Below are positions 15,776 to 41,513 of a DNA stretch of 54,804 nucleotides, in pieces. Position numbers and translations under genes: made by a program. The notes under the pieces were generated by a model that worked only from the letters and a program-made list of their open reading frames with translations, did no database searches and was not told the DNA's origin. The stretch is from Natrarchaeobius oligotrophus (GTDB taxonomy: Archaea; Halobacteriota; Halobacteria; Halobacteriales; Natrialbaceae): contig NZ_REFZ01000069.1 in NCBI RefSeq assembly GCF_003841465.1, positions 1-54,804 on the forward strand, read 5' to 3'. The stretch's first letter is position 1, and every line of letters begins with the position of its first letter.

Positions 15776-18700
15776 CTACAGCTGACCGGCGACCGCGTCG
15801 ATGCGCGTCCGCAGCTCGTCGACGGCCTCGCGAACCGACCGCCGACTTCCCAACCGAAGACTGGCCTGGCCGGCTTCCTGGTCGATCTCGCGGACGCGGA
15901 CGGGGACGTCGAACGGCAACTCCTCGTCAGAGAGCGCCTCGACGAGCGACCAGCGGGGATCGGCGTCGTCGATCACGGCGGTCGCCTCCTCGAGGGGCTC
16001 CTGGAGCTCGAGTGCCAGCCCGAACGCGAGCAACTCGGCCTCGCGCTCTGTCGTCGCGTCCGCGATGTTGACCTTGCGCGTCGCCGGATCGTCGACGCCG
16101 GGAATCTCGTACTCGCCGCGGATCTTGTAGCGGTAGTCGATCGCGTACTCGGCGTCGTCGTCCATCGAGCCGCCCTCGAGCAGCCGGATCGCCCCCTCCT
16201 GCCAGACCATCTCGTAGTCGACGTTGCGCTCGAAGACCTCGTCGGGGTCGTCCGGGTCGTAGACGCGCTCGGAGTTGCGCCGGATGTAGGTCTCGTCGAG
16301 TCCGGTCAGGAAGCCGTAGCCGGTGACGCTGAACAGTTCGCCCTCGACGTTTCGAGAGTCGCCCTCGACGATGATGTGCTGGTAGGCGCTTTCGGTTGTG
16401 CGCTCGGCCTCCCAGTCGATCAGATCCGGCTGACGGTCGCTTTCGCGCTGGCCGGGCTGGGTCCACTCGACGACCGTCCCGCCCTCGCCGTCCGGCCGAA
16501 CCTCCCAGACGAAGTCGCCGGCGTCGGCCTTCCGGTTGAGGATCGAGACGCCGTCCTCGTCAGCCGAGAAGTCCAGCAACACGGGGATGTCCTGGAGCGT
16601 CGCAAGCACCTCGATCGCATCGAGGACCTGCGAGACGTCGCCGAACGTCCCGGACTCCGTGCCGTCGCTATCGTAGCGCGAGAGCGTCACGCGTAACTGG
16701 ATCGACTGCCCGGCCTCGGCGAACTCCGCGACCTCGAGGACGTCCGTGTTCGTCGCTTCGACCCAGTCGTGTTGCGAGCTGTTGCGGACCGCAAGGGCCT
16801 GGTCGCCCGACGTGTCGTCGATGTCGATCTCCGCGCGAGCGCCGACGACCTGCTCGATCGAGGAGACCGGGTCAAAGAGGACGTCGTAACTCTCGGGATA
16901 CTGCTCCCAGCCTTCGACGACGCCGTCCTCGGGTTCGGTATCACTCGTCGAGTAGCTAAACCGGTCATCTCGGATGTGCGCCCAGTCGAGATAGATATCG
17001 TCCCCGCCGCCGGTGTTCGTGATCTGGAACTGCAGGTTGTTATCCGGGCCGACGTCGTCGACGGAGACCTGGAACGTCCGCAGGTCGTACTGATCGTCGG
17101 TCCCCGACAAGATTCCGGGGTCGATGTCCTCGAGCGTCGTCCCTTCGTACTCGATCTCGATGCCCGGCGAATCGCCAGGGATCGCGAACACGAACTCGCA
17201 CGTCACGCTGGGGATCTCGTATTCGGGCGAAAACGAAAACGTCCGCTCGTCGTTGCCGCCCAGTTGGACCGCCTCGCCGCCGGACCACCGTCCCTCTTCG
17301 TCGATGTTGATCGAGCCGTCGCCATCGGCGTCTTCGGCTTCGGTAAACCACGCCGATTGCAGCATCTCGACCTCGCCGAGAACCGAGAGTTCGAGCGGAT
17401 CCGTGTCGCCGAACGGCCACTCGGCGAGCGCGTCCTCCATCTCCGACTCGGTCTCGGCGTCCTGCATCAACACGTCGCCGCGAGTATCGGAGTCCGGCTC
17501 GTCGACGTTCGCTGTGTAGCCCACGACGTTCTCGATGAACTCTTCGGCGGCGACGTGAGCGTCTTCCTCGACGTACTCGACGTCGCGGTAGTAGTCGTCA
17601 AGCGCAGTACCGCCGACGCCCTCGAGGACGGAGTGGCCGGGTTCTCGGGAGACGCCGCGCAGTTCGTCGATCGGCAACTCGACGCCGTCCTTCCAGACGC
17701 GCATCGGGGCGTCCTCGAGTGCCTCCGAGCGCCACTTTTCGTCTCGCGGGACGGGGATCTCGACGCGCGGCAGGCCGTTGACGACCGGGATCCACTCAAC
17801 CTCGTCGAGGATCTGTGGCTTGAGCGTCCGGCCGGACGGATGGTCGATCTCGACGTGCCACCCGATCGACGGGACAGAGCGCTGCTCGAGGCCGATGCTG
17901 TCGGTTTCAAACGTGACGACTTCGCTATCGGCGTGAACGTACTGCGTGACGGCACGGACCATCACGGCGTACTCCCGCTCCGGATGCAGATCCGCGTTCG
18001 CTGCCTCTTCGGCGTCGTCTGCGACAGTCGTGACGATCCGACCGACGTCGTCACCGTAGTCGTAGTCCGTTCGGCCGAGCCATACCTGATACGACCCGTC
18101 AAAAACTGATTCGTCGATCCACGAAAACGTCGCGCTCGTTTCGTCGACGTCGATCGCCTCGAGATCCGAGGCGCTGAACAGTGCCGTAATCTCGTCGGCA
18201 GTGTGCCACGCGCCCGTTGCGTCCACTGTCTCGGAGCGCACACGGACGTCGTACTGCTCGCCGTCGAGAACGGACTCGATCACGTGCTCCAGTGGGTCCG
18301 CGTCGTACGGGACGGTCGTCTCGTCGTCCCACTCGGTCTCGATCGATCGGCGCCACTCGAGTCGCCACTCACCGTGGTTCAGCGTCGGCGTGATCTCTTC
18401 GACAGCCAGCTCCTCGGGCTCCGATCCATCCAGGACGAACCCCTCGACGTCCGGGAGCGGCGTCGTCCCGCTCTCCGGATCGGACGGCGCGATCGATCCG
18501 TCGGCGTTGACCGCAACGACGATCTCGAACTCGCGTCCGTTGTTGACGCCCTCGAGCGTGTGGCTGGTCGTGTTGGCCGACAACGTCTTGACGAGCTCGT
18601 AATCGTCGCGAAACTCGTCGCCGTCGGTCGTCGGATACCGGATCCAGATCTCGACGTCTTCGTTCCCGTCGAGATCGCTGTCGTCGTACGTCCACTCGAG

Positions 18701-19423
18701 GTCGACCGTGGTCGCGTCCACGACTGAGAGGTCGTCGATCGTCGGCACCCACGACGCTCGCGGGGCGATCGCCTCTGTGATCTCGATTTCGCCCTCGTCA
18801 ACGGGGCTGCCGCCGTCCTCGCTGTCGTGTACGGTGACTCTACTATCCAGGACTTCCACGCCGCCGGCGTCGCCGGGATCGCCGTTATCGCCACCCAGAC
18901 CACTATCTCCACCGTCGCCGCCGAAGCCGGTCCCGTCGGCGTCTTCGCCGTCGTCGCCTGTCGTGTACTCGTCGTCCTCGTCACCACCGGAGCCACCGTC
19001 GCCACCGCGGCCGCCGCCACCACCACCGCCGCCGTAAACCCAGTTTGCTGCGATGTGGCCGCCACCACCTCCCGCCCCGCCGCCGTCGACGATCGCGAGC
19101 AGTGTCCCGTCCCCGACGATCGCGGTTGCGCCCGCACCGTCACCACCGTCACCGGCGAAACTCGCTCCTTCGCCACCGAGACCGCCGTCGTAGTAGCCCC
19201 ACGGCCGGCCGGCGGGGTACAACTCGAGCGTGTCGAGATCGGATACGTCGATTTCGAGGGCGAGCAAACCACCCGGGCCACCAGGACCACCGTCGCCGCC
19301 GTCGTCACCGTCCTCGCCGTCTTCGCCGGCGGCACCGCGGAGCTCCGCCCAGGCGGTGTCGTAGGCACTGACGTCGACCGTTTGTGATGCGCCGGTGTAC
19401 TCGTACGTCTGTGTTATTGGCAT
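15776..19423 (-). CDS. Large tail-tip/fibre protein with Gly-rich head and fibronectin-type III modules
   Basis: 1215 residues. Residues ~35-190 are extremely Gly/Asp-rich (runs such as GDGGDGGPGGPGG and VYGGGGGGGGRGGDG), resembling Gly-rich phage tail domains that may form polyglycine-helix sandwiches. Residues ~222-510 look like three beta-sandwich modules of FN3 type (IDDLSVVDATTVDLEWTYDD; DLEAIDVDETSATFSWIDES). The C-terminal ~700 residues are a large unrecognised beta-rich region. FN3 repeats are common in phage tail-tip and adhesion proteins, so it probably contacts the host surface. Last gene of the late operon, separated from it by the inserted GNAT gene. Confidence 0.85.
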   Translation of the reverse strand: MPITQTYEYTGASQTVDVSAYDTAWAELRGAAGEDGEDGDDGGDGGPGGPGGLLALEIDVSDLDTLELYPAGRPWGYYDGGLGGEGASFAGDGGDGAGATAIVGDGTLLAIVDGGGAGGGGGHIAANWVYGGGGGGGGRGGDGGSGGDEDDEYTTGDDGEDADGTGFGGDGGDSGLGGDNGDPGDAGGVEVLDSRVTVHDSEDGGSPVDEGEIEITEAIAPRASWVPTIDDLSVVDATTVDLEWTYDDSDLDGNEDVEIWIRYPTTDGDEFRDDYELVKTLSANTTSHTLEGVNNGREFEIVVAVNADGSIAPSDPESGTTPLPDVEGFVLDGSEPEELAVEEITPTLNHGEWRLEWRRSIETEWDDETTVPYDADPLEHVIESVLDGEQYDVRVRSETVDATGAWHTADEITALFSASDLEAIDVDETSATFSWIDESVFDGSYQVWLGRTDYDYGDDVGRIVTTVADDAEEAANADLHPEREYAVMVRAVTQYVHADSEVVTFETDSIGLEQRSVPSIGWHVEIDHPSGRTLKPQILDEVEWIPVVNGLPRVEIPVPRDEKWRSEALEDAPMRVWKDGVELPIDELRGVSREPGHSVLEGVGGTALDDYYRDVEYVEEDAHVAAEEFIENVVGYTANVDEPDSDTRGDVLMQDAETESEMEDALAEWPFGDTDPLELSVLGEVEMLQSAWFTEAEDADGDGSINIDEEGRWSGGEAVQLGGNDERTFSFSPEYEIPSVTCEFVFAIPGDSPGIEIEYEGTTLEDIDPGILSGTDDQYDLRTFQVSVDDVGPDNNLQFQITNTGGGDDIYLDWAHIRDDRFSYSTSDTEPEDGVVEGWEQYPESYDVLFDPVSSIEQVVGARAEIDIDDTSGDQALAVRNSSQHDWVEATNTDVLEVAEFAEAGQSIQLRVTLSRYDSDGTESGTFGDVSQVLDAIEVLATLQDIPVLLDFSADEDGVSILNRKADAGDFVWEVRPDGEGGTVVEWTQPGQRESDRQPDLIDWEAERTTESAYQHIIVEGDSRNVEGELFSVTGYGFLTGLDETYIRRNSERVYDPDDPDEVFERNVDYEMVWQEGAIRLLEGGSMDDDAEYAIDYRYKIRGEYEIPGVDDPATRKVNIADATTEREAELLAFGLALELQEPLEEATAVIDDADPRWSLVEALSDEELPFDVPVRVREIDQEAGQASLRLGSRRSVREAVDELRTRIDAVAGQL

Positions 19424-25071: not shown

Positions 25072-26229
25072 TCATGTGATTTGGTCCTCGAGATCGTCGA
25101 TGCGGTCGTTGACGTCGTCGAGTTCGTCCTCGAGCTCGTCGTACGCACTATCGAGTTCGCTCTCGATCGCGTCGAGGGCGCTGCTCACGTCGCGTATCTC
25201 GTCAACGATCACCTCGGTATCGAACGACTGGTCGACGTTGATCTGTTCGATCGTCGGGGCCTGTGGCGTCGTCTGTTCGGCCGTGACGCCGACGTCAGTC
25301 GAGCCGCTCTGATCGGGTTCCGATCGTTCCTGCCCAGTCTGCCCTCTGTCGACTGGGTCCATGAACGGAACCGTGTCCCGAAGTCGGTCCTCGACGCCTC
25401 GGTCGAACTCTCGAAGTCCCTCACCAACTCCAAAGACGTCGAGGCCTTCGCCGACCTCCCGGATTGGTTCGAAAACGCCCGGTCCATCACCGTCCTCGTC
25501 AACGGCGACGTCGCCAGTGCCCTCGCCGACACTCACCGAGACGTTGACGCCGATCGGATCGACGTCTTCGACTTCGAGCGGCAACGGGCCCTCGTCGATC
25601 GCGAACGGGCTGGGGTCATCGACTGCGTAAGGGCTGTCCGGGTGGTCGACGTCGTACGGGTCCTCTGGATGGTCGACGGGCAGAGATTCGACGTCTTCAA
25701 CCTCGAGTGGGAGTGCGTCCTCGTCGATGTAGAGGGGGCTGGGATCGTCGACTGCGTAGGGTTCGTCCGGGTGGTCGACGGCGATCGGCGTCCAGTCGGG
25801 TTCTTCGACACTGATGCTCCCGCCTGCGATTGCGTTACCGACCGCCGATCCGATGAGCGATCCGAGCCCCGCACCGATCCCGCTAGCTGCCCCGCCCGCG
25901 AGGCCGCCGCCGGCGCCGCCGACACCGCCGAGAATGTCGCCGACGAGACTGCCGCCGTCACCCCCGATATCGCCGTCCCAACTCTCGAGAATCTCGAGGA
26001 TGTCCTCCAGGTTGGCGTGGTTGTCACGGTTCCAGCGATGTTCCCGGCGGGCGCGACGCTGTGCACGTCCGCCGCGGCCACCGCCAGCAGCTTGTGCCGA
26101 CATCGTCCCGCCATCGGTCATTCCGACCGGTGTCGCCCCGATCTCCGACTCGATCTGTTGCCGGGCGTTGCGGAGTGACCGATCGTCGATCTCGATATCG
26201 AGAGCAGCCGTTGCAGAAAAGTCACTCAT
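25072..26229 (-). CDS. Probable tape-measure protein (short)
   Basis: 385 residues. The position directly after the frameshifted tail chaperone is diagnostic for the tape measure. Features: a Gly-rich hydrophobic stretch at ~100-140 (GGVGGAGGGLAGGAASGIGAGLGSLIGSAVG), an internal duplication of about 35 residues (each with DHPD-PYAVDDPSP then LPLEVEDV), and a C-terminal coiled coil (ALDAIESELDSAYDELEDELDDVNDRIDDLEDQI). It is short for the family, predicting a tail of only about 55-60 nm by the usual 0.15 nm per residue rule. It starts by ATGA overlap with the chaperone stop. Confidence 0.78.
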   Translation of the reverse strand: MSDFSATAALDIEIDDRSLRNARQQIESEIGATPVGMTDGGTMSAQAAGGGRGGRAQRRARREHRWNRDNHANLEDILEILESWDGDIGGDGGSLVGDILGGVGGAGGGLAGGAASGIGAGLGSLIGSAVGNAIAGGSISVEEPDWTPIAVDHPDEPYAVDDPSPLYIDEDALPLEVEDVESLPVDHPEDPYDVDHPDSPYAVDDPSPFAIDEGPLPLEVEDVDPIGVNVSVSVGEGTGDVAVDEDGDGPGVFEPIREVGEGLDVFGVGEGLREFDRGVEDRLRDTVPFMDPVDRGQTGQERSEPDQSGSTDVGVTAEQTTPQAPTIEQINVDQSFDTEVIVDEIRDVSSALDAIESELDSAYDELEDELDDVNDRIDDLEDQIT

Positions 26230-26806
26230 GGAAATCCTCTCGAATCGGCGCGATCAGCAAGCAGTTCGAGGTAGTCGGCGGGCGTCTCGAGGACAGCCTC
26301 GTAGCTCATTCCGTGGGCGAGTCCGATGACGATGAGGTCGTCGAGTTCGTCTCGCCCTCGCTCGAGTTTCCCGGCGCCCCTGGAACGCCCAGTGCATTCG
26401 CCTTGGCTTCGGCCCACTTCGGGAATCCTGGGTGGCACTGGCCGAGATTTCGGAACGTCTCTGCGAGATCGTCGCCGACGTACGGTGCGTCGACCGTGCT
26501 GGCGGCGACCCACCAGAGCCGGCGTTCGTCTTTCTCGGCAGTGCTGGGCCGTTCACGGTGCATCATCGCTTCCTCCGAGGCAGTCATCGCCCCGAGTTCG
26601 ATCTCTGCCCCGGGGCTCCAGCCTTCCTCGTCACGTTGCCACTGGAGCCCATTCTTGAAGTAGGCCAGCCGGTCTTTTTGAGACTCGGTACGCTCATACT
26701 CGGACGTCGACGAATCGAGTTCGTCCAGTGCCTCATCGAGGGTGGCGATGTGGTCTTTCAGCTCGTCGATCGCGTCCTCGAGAACGTAGGTTTCAGTCGT
26801 GAGCAT
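26226..26806 (-). CDS. Tail assembly chaperone GT-type fusion made by -1 frameshifting
   Basis: Ribosomes slipping -1 at G GGA AAC (26372-26366) leave the 26306-26806 frame after PGN and read LERGRDELDDLIVIGLAHGMSYEAV... to a TGA at 26226. The product would be 193 residues: 147 from the first frame and 46 from the second. Lambda-like phages make G and GT this way at GGGAAAG, and the pair chaperones tape-measure and tail-tube assembly. The second-frame peptide continues helical protein sequence up to the tape-measure ATG, which it overlaps by 4 bases. Confidence 0.75.
26306..26806 (-). CDS. Tail assembly chaperone G-type protein
   Basis: 166 residues in the zero frame. N-terminal coiled coil (AIDELKDHIATLDEALDELDSSTSEYERTESQKDRL), then a globular part ending with a Ser/Thr-rich tail (GETNSTTSSSSDSPTE) that lies beyond the slippery site. 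It sits between the putative tail tube gene and the tape measure, as G does in lambda-type tails. Confidence 0.78.
   Translation of the reverse strand: MLTTETYVLEDAIDELKDHIATLDEALDELDSSTSEYERTESQKDRLAYFKNGLQWQRDEEGWSPGAEIELGAMTASEEAMMHRERPSTAEKDERRLWWVAASTVDAPYVGDDLAETFRNLGQCHPGFPKWAEAKANALGVPGAPGNSSEGETNSTTSSSSDSPTE
26366..26372 (-). other. Programmed -1 frameshift slippery heptamer GGGAAAC
   Basis: In the zero frame it reads G GGA AAC, an exact X XXY YYZ heptamer. Re-pairing gives GGG AAA C. It differs from lambda G/GT (GGGAAAG) only in the last base. The -1 frame stays open for 46 codons and ends overlapping the next start codon. Confidence 0.75.
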
Positions 26807-26807
26807 G

Positions 26808-27713
26808 TTAGGCCTCCGTGACCGTCGCCGAAACGCCCCCGACGTGGTAGTCGATCGGCTCGCTTAGATCCTCTTCCGGAGCGACCAGATTGCTCCAGTC
26901 GTACGAGTTGGGCTGGCAGTCGTCGAGATCGTACTCGATGGTTTCACCCTGTCCGTTCTCCAGCGAGAACGTTGCAGAAGTCTTGTCGACGACGTCGCTG
27001 TCCTGCGTATCGTCAGCGGCGAGTGCGAGCTGGTCGCGCTCGGTGAACGTCGCGTCAGTCGAGAACGACGGTTCGATCGCGTCGACAACGGCGCTGTGTG
27101 GATGGCGGCTCTGTCCGCGCCGGAAGCGTGCCAGACCGGCAAGCGACAGTGACGCCGACTGCATGAGCGACTGCCCCATTCCATCGACATCGAAGTTCGC
27201 ACCGTGCCACTGGTAGGCGTCCTCGTCAGCTGGCTGTTCGATCTCTCCGGGTTCGGTGACGTCGTCCGGCTCGAACCCGTAGAGGACCGTCAGGTCGACC
27301 GTGACATCTTGACCCTGTTCGTAGTTGACCGTCGCCTCGGGCACGATCGCGCCGGTCGGCGTCCGCGGCTCGGTCGACCCATCTGGCAGCGTGACGGCAA
27401 GATACCATGTCGCCGATGGCGCCTCCATTGGCTCGGTCGGGAGTGCGGTTCCGTCGTCGGCAAAGACGAGGTCGTGCCACTCCGCGCCGGCGAGAGTTCC
27501 GGACACGTTGAGCGCGCCCTCCCAGTCACCCGGTCGCGAGCCGGCCGGCGTCGGGTCGTCGGGCTGTCTCGACCGCTCGAGTGCTTGCTCGACCGAGAGG
27601 CTGCCGACGGTGACGTCGATGAACGGCTGATGCCACGTCGGGTCTGTCCCGGGCCCCTCGCCGAACTCGTCCTCGAGCGTGAACGCCACTTCGGCAGATC
27701 CGGCCCCAGTCAT
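26808..27713 (-). CDS. Putative major tail tube protein
   Basis: 301 residues, beta-rich, no catalytic motif. Encoded just before the tail chaperones, the standard place of the tail tube gene. Segments such as SATFSLENGQGETIEYDLDDCQPNSYDWSNL and PIDYHVGGVSATVTEA suggest a tail-tube-like beta fold. It overlaps the previous gene by 4 bases. Identification rests on order and composition. Confidence 0.7.
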   Translation of the reverse strand: MTGAGSAEVAFTLEDEFGEGPGTDPTWHQPFIDVTVGSLSVEQALERSRQPDDPTPAGSRPGDWEGALNVSGTLAGAEWHDLVFADDGTALPTEPMEAPSATWYLAVTLPDGSTEPRTPTGAIVPEATVNYEQGQDVTVDLTVLYGFEPDDVTEPGEIEQPADEDAYQWHGANFDVDGMGQSLMQSASLSLAGLARFRRGQSRHPHSAVVDAIEPSFSTDATFTERDQLALAADDTQDSDVVDKTSATFSLENGQGETIEYDLDDCQPNSYDWSNLVAPEEDLSEPIDYHVGGVSATVTEA

Positions 27714-41243: not shown

Positions 41244-41316
41244 TCGGATCGGTAGGAGTCGAACCTACGTGTTCTCGGTCTACAGCCGAGCGCGTCGGCC
41301 ACTGCGCTACGATCCG
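41244..41316 (-). tRNA. tRNA-Tyr (GUA)
   Basis: Acceptor CGGATCG (41316-41310) pairs with CGATCCG (41251-41245), followed by discriminator A at 41244. The C1-G72 pair is the archaeal tRNA-Tyr identity element. The anticodon stem is CTCGG/CCGAG with loop CTGTAGA, giving anticodon GUA. The T-arm is GTAGG-TTCGACT-CCTAC. No intron and no encoded CCA. It may compensate for viral codon use or act against host tRNA cleavage. Confidence 0.92.
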
Positions 41317-41440: not shown

Positions 41441-41513
41441 TGAGTCGACTCGGATTCGAACCGAGACACGCCGCTTCTTCAAAGCGGTGCGCTCCCAGTT
41501 GCGCTACCGACTC
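41441..41513 (-). tRNA. tRNA-Phe (GAA)
   Basis: Acceptor GAGTCGG (41513-41507) pairs with TCGACTC (41448-41442); discriminator A at 41441. Anticodon arm CCGCT-TTGAAGA-AGCGG gives anticodon GAA. T-arm CTCGG-TTCGAAT-CCGAG. D-arm GCGC...GCGC. No encoded CCA, no intron. The acceptor differs from the usual archaeal GCC-starting tRNA-Phe. Confidence 0.9.

Follow-up and report, generated by a model that had tools for sequence, protein, structure and literature searches.

The window, which is the whole stretch of DNA analysed here (54,804 nucleotides of a Natrarchaeobius oligotrophus contig), carries on its minus strand a tail module in which the genes follow one another as in lambda, in the order tail tube, chaperone and probable short tape measure. 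The chaperone gene thus sits between a Pfam-matched tail tube gene and a probable tape measure gene, and the features on which the following discussion turns are these:

26808–27713, minus strand: tail tube protein of 301 amino acids, matching Pfam PF18906 (Phage_tube_2) above its cut-off (39.7 bits; cut-off, 27)
26306–26806, minus strand: 0-frame open reading frame of a gpG-like tail assembly chaperone, 166 amino acids, with an ATG start and a TGA stop
26366–26372, minus strand: slippery heptamer G_GGA_AAC, read as GGA AAC in the 0 frame and as GGG AAA in the -1 frame
26315–26357, minus strand: possible, suggestive downstream stimulatory hairpin, separated from the heptamer by an 8-nt spacer
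26226–26372, minus strand: -1 frame extension, a T-like domain of 46 residues past the slip, ending at TGA 26228–26226 and supported by alignment, third-position bias and a structure model
26226–26229, minus strand: ATGA overlap between the -1 frame stop and the start of the next open reading frame (ATG 26229–26227)
25072–26229, minus strand: probable short tape-measure protein of 385 amino acids, with glycine-rich and C-terminal coiled-coil parts

The GGGAAAC of the 0-frame open reading frame (26372–26366) is phased as CCG GGA AAC, i.e., G_GGA_AAC, and downstream of it the -1 frame meets no stop before the TGA. A -1 shift at this point would therefore join 147 residues to 46 and give a fusion of 193. 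An earlier note had claimed, from the letters alone, a G_GGA_AAC in a tail chaperone gene, a 193-residue fusion and a -1 frame running to the start of the tape measure. Its coordinates and fusion length were right (the 0 frame runs from 26806 to 26306), the heptamer is present in phase, and the -1 frame does reach the next start, through the ATGA overlap and in the gene order it gave. The model of the 0-frame protein has a pLDDT of 86, with residues 151–163 below 50, and the last 19 or so residues are Ser/Thr-rich and predicted to be disordered. The T-like domain is modelled as three helices with a pLDDT of 90.

Neither Pfam nor NCBIfam holds a curated family that matches the chaperone, and its only profile match is to the unnamed phrog_19457. 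It does align across the slip site with the annotated chaperone of HCTV-1, a distant match (hhalign, E 6e-6), and is 52% identical to the chaperones of BJ1 and CGphi46 (Graaviviridae), which have the same neighbours. A Foldseek search of the PDB with its fold gave no significant match. The best VIA-align match is weak (3klu, YqbN; Z 5.1 over 93 residues, rmsd 3.6) and serves only as a lead; YqbN is presumably a prophage chaperone. In BFVD a single match fell under E 0.001, and it carries no name, while the fold search with the T-like domain returned nothing significant.

Relatives of the gene were found on three IMG/VR contigs, by sequence match in 18 of 125 host-family genomes, and by profile match in 41 of 391 genomes of the class. 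The resulting set holds 49 non-identical haloarchaeal loci, which form 46, 39 and 18 clusters at 90%, 70% and 50% protein identity, respectively; these loci share ancestry rather than being independent events, and identity to the window protein goes down to about 22%. All 49 have an in-phase X_XXY_YYZ heptamer that follows the chaperone domain and precedes the 0-frame stop. It is GGGAAAC in 44 loci and GGGAAAT in two, with AAAAAAC, AAAAAAT and AAATTTG found once each. Wherever the 0 frame reads Gly-Asn at the slip, glycine is encoded by GGA (46/46), although GGA makes up only 10–13% of the Gly codons, so that it is the nucleotides and not the peptide that are constrained. The A-site codon specifies Asn in 48 of the 49 loci and Lys in none. 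The earlier note had named lack of conservation of the heptamer and the second frame as what would speak against it; both are conserved throughout the set.

Some individual loci deserve a separate remark. The exceptions to G_GGA_AAY are L062 (A_AAT_TTG), L060 (A_AAA_AAC) and L066 (A_AAA_AAT). The -1 frame of L062 becomes open no more than about one codon ahead of the heptamer, and its 0 frame ends two codons past it, so that a slip in this locus must lie at the heptamer. L018 has two tandem in-phase heptamers (at about 1965–1980), G_GGA_AAG followed by G_GGA_AAC. In L015, about 30 codons directly ahead of the heptamer (MGEDQRISTVANLPVHYLIWAEARIGELTG) are duplicated in tandem, which is not the case in its near twin L014.

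Past the 0-frame stop, the -1 frame continues for 77–185 nt in 49/49 loci, and its product can be aligned over 43 of them. The third codon position takes a share of 0.41–0.58 of the changes in this stretch of the -1 frame, as against one third. In the region of overlap, the changes are spread more evenly over the codon positions (0.33–0.43), as expected for dual coding. The -1 frame thus encodes a conserved, codon-constrained, helical C-terminal domain.

Taken alone, the window copy proves little. GGGAAAC occurs four times in the window against 5.0 ± 2.3 expected, which places a single heptamer at chance level, and at 63% G+C long open frames are frequent and several frames are open here. A gene rich in G+C that contains the heptamer by chance and happens to be open in further frames would account for these observations. 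However, when the stretch from the end of the chaperone domain to the 0-frame stop was resampled with synonymous codons, an in-phase X_XXY_YYZ (with Y being A or T) appeared in about 5.6% of trials per locus, which corresponds to 2.7 of 49 loci, as against the 49 found; such a reading also fails to explain the conserved, codon-constrained -1 domain. It is the conservation across loci that provides the decisive evidence beyond chance, and in view of these comparative data an accidental origin, which is refuted for the family, is vanishingly improbable for the site discussed here.

The -1 domain might also be made as a separate protein by independent initiation or reinitiation without any frameshift. 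Overlap and coupling of genes are frequent in haloarchaea, and the window copy does offer GTG, ATG and TTG codons in the -1 frame, 45–141 nt upstream of the heptamer. In 27 of the 49 loci, however, the part of the -1 frame that precedes the slip is free of start codons; beyond the slip, the nearest one comes no sooner than after 54 nt (21 nt in L062, the exception) and mostly falls within the domain. As initiation would furthermore leave the conserved GGA AAC codons unexplained, we regard it as highly unlikely. Slippage of the RNA polymerase on the GGGAAA run would yield the same fusion, in this case from an edited mRNA, and the site does contain two short homopolymer runs. Nevertheless, three identical bases make a short run by the standards of polymerase slippage, few of the heptamer variants are homogeneous, and the conserved in-phase GGA AAC is a better fit to tandem slippage of tRNAs, all of which makes a transcriptional origin of the fusion extremely unlikely. 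The most economical interpretation is that the tRNAs slip in tandem on GGA AAC. From the conservation of the site we infer that haloarchaeal ribosomes can undergo -1 slippage, and on the comparative sequence evidence the virus almost certainly makes two versions of its chaperone, as some ribosomes would slip back by one base.

We therefore consider it very likely that the gene encodes a tail assembly chaperone in which a minority -1 slip on G_GGA_AAC yields a T-like extension. Most ribosomes would stay in frame and produce the 166-residue gpG-like chaperone with its disordered Ser/Thr-rich tail. A minority would slip back one base on the heptamer, with the tRNA on GGA re-pairing with GGG and that on AAC with AAA, and would then read the folded 46-residue T-like domain and terminate at the TGA that overlaps the next start. 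If the two products share their work as in lambda, the short one might serve as a coat for the tape measure and the long one to bring in tail-tube subunits, and slippage would fix their proportions.

As to what might assist the slip, the 61-nt fold downstream of the heptamer in the window has a z of -1.98, and similar stems are kept in L007 and L008, the two closest relatives of the window. Over the 49 loci, however, downstream RNA structure has a mean z of -0.42, and none could be aligned from one subgroup to another; a conserved downstream stimulatory structure is consequently not claimed, despite the stem in the window. No clear signal of a Shine-Dalgarno-like stimulator upstream was found either (mean z -0.46). 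The host genome has tRNA-Gly(UCC), tRNA-Asn(GUU) and both tRNA-Lys species, as seen in a sample of its tRNAs taken through the loci, part of which were typed. It is conceivable, if rather doubtful, that haloarchaeal ribosomes favour tRNA-Asn(GUU) when they slip, much as happens at eukaryotic-type sites, and that a conserved RNA structure is perhaps unneeded. This idea comes from AAG having its own tRNA-Lys(CUU), which would re-pair poorly with AAA. Against a general preference for Asn stand the G_GGA_AAG sites reported for HCTV-5 and for a Natronolimnobius provirus (the latter in PMC7911831), as well as the use of AAC by bacterial phages.

The lambda G and GT proteins provide the classical comparison. 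They share with the window a short and a -1-extended chaperone encoded before the tape measure and a site of the X_XXY_YYZ type, but lambda has a bacterial host, and its slippery sequence is G_GGA_AAG (PMC7618472), where the A-site codon specifies Lys. The suggestion in the earlier note that the lambda arrangement is conserved down to the heptamer consequently holds for the type of heptamer and not for its exact sequence. Exactly GGGAAAC has been predicted as the frameshift site in the tail chaperones of Colossus (phiCbK group) and KL1 (PMC3556154, PMC3483164); in contrast to the window, these have bacterial hosts, and the likeness rests on the heptamer and the type of gene.

Nor is the window site the first haloarchaeal case. 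A 2016 review (PMC5009743) reports -1 frameshifting predicted in the tail chaperones of HVTV-1 and HCTV-1, -2 and -5, with G_GGA_AAC as the HCTV-1 site. In fact, the HCTV-1 record (DNAM5_122/123) has a joined chaperone CDS with G_GGA_AAC in the same place. HCTV-1 (Druskaviridae) thus resembles the window in gene position, heptamer and distant protein similarity across the slip site, but belongs to another virus family and order and has a larger chaperone, which two open reading frames separate from the tape measure. Another haloarchaeal siphovirus, Hardycor1 (HrrHc1_110/115), likewise has a -1 slippery site in the chaperone gene preceding tmp; this site is G_GGA_AAT, with G_GGA_AAG in a Natronolimnobius relative (PMC7911831). 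In contrast to the window, its tape measure has 703 amino acids, and the likeness is known from the site and its position. In the HF1-group haloviruses, too, the tail tube and tape measure genes are separated by two CDS, for which a frameshift fusion was proposed (PMC7230728), but that shift is +1 and lacks a conventional slippery sequence.

For the BJ1/Graaviviridae lineage, we found no earlier mention of a frameshift in the open-licence literature. The BJ1 paper does not mention one, the records of BJ1 and CGphi46 annotate none, and the 2021 taxonomy paper has the word once, in a reference title. The present results point to an unannotated frameshift in BJ1 and CGphi46, and many haloarchaeal provirus tail chaperones probably need a joined annotation. 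A 2021 review (PMC8211752) counted a single reported case of programmed -1 frameshifting in archaea and a few virus predictions. To these, our study adds an extensive comparison of loci, in which the support for the present case is unusually strong, together with a compact, strongly conserved site suited to reporter work in a haloarchaeon.

The tail module is homologous to that of the BJ1-like Graaviviridae and has the same order, and on this comparison the window would derive from a siphovirus or provirus that resembles the Graaviviridae and whose host is a haloarchaeon of the Natrialbaceae. The assignment of 25072–26229 as a short tape measure is probable, given its position, a weak profile match (phrog_794, E 0.011) and its conservation, as the open reading frame after the chaperone is kept in 10 of 11 inspected loci at 375–463 amino acids. 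The putative tape-measure gene contains a 101-nt segment in two copies that are offset by 129 nt and 78% identical (25559–25788, minus strand), a 43-codon duplication that could have a bearing on tail length. At the end of the tail module, a 1215-amino-acid open reading frame with a fibronectin type III domain (15776–19423, minus strand) perhaps encodes a receptor-binding or tip protein. The viral contig also carries predicted genes for tRNA-Tyr(GTA) and tRNA-Phe(GAA), at 41244–41316 and 41441–41513 on the minus strand.
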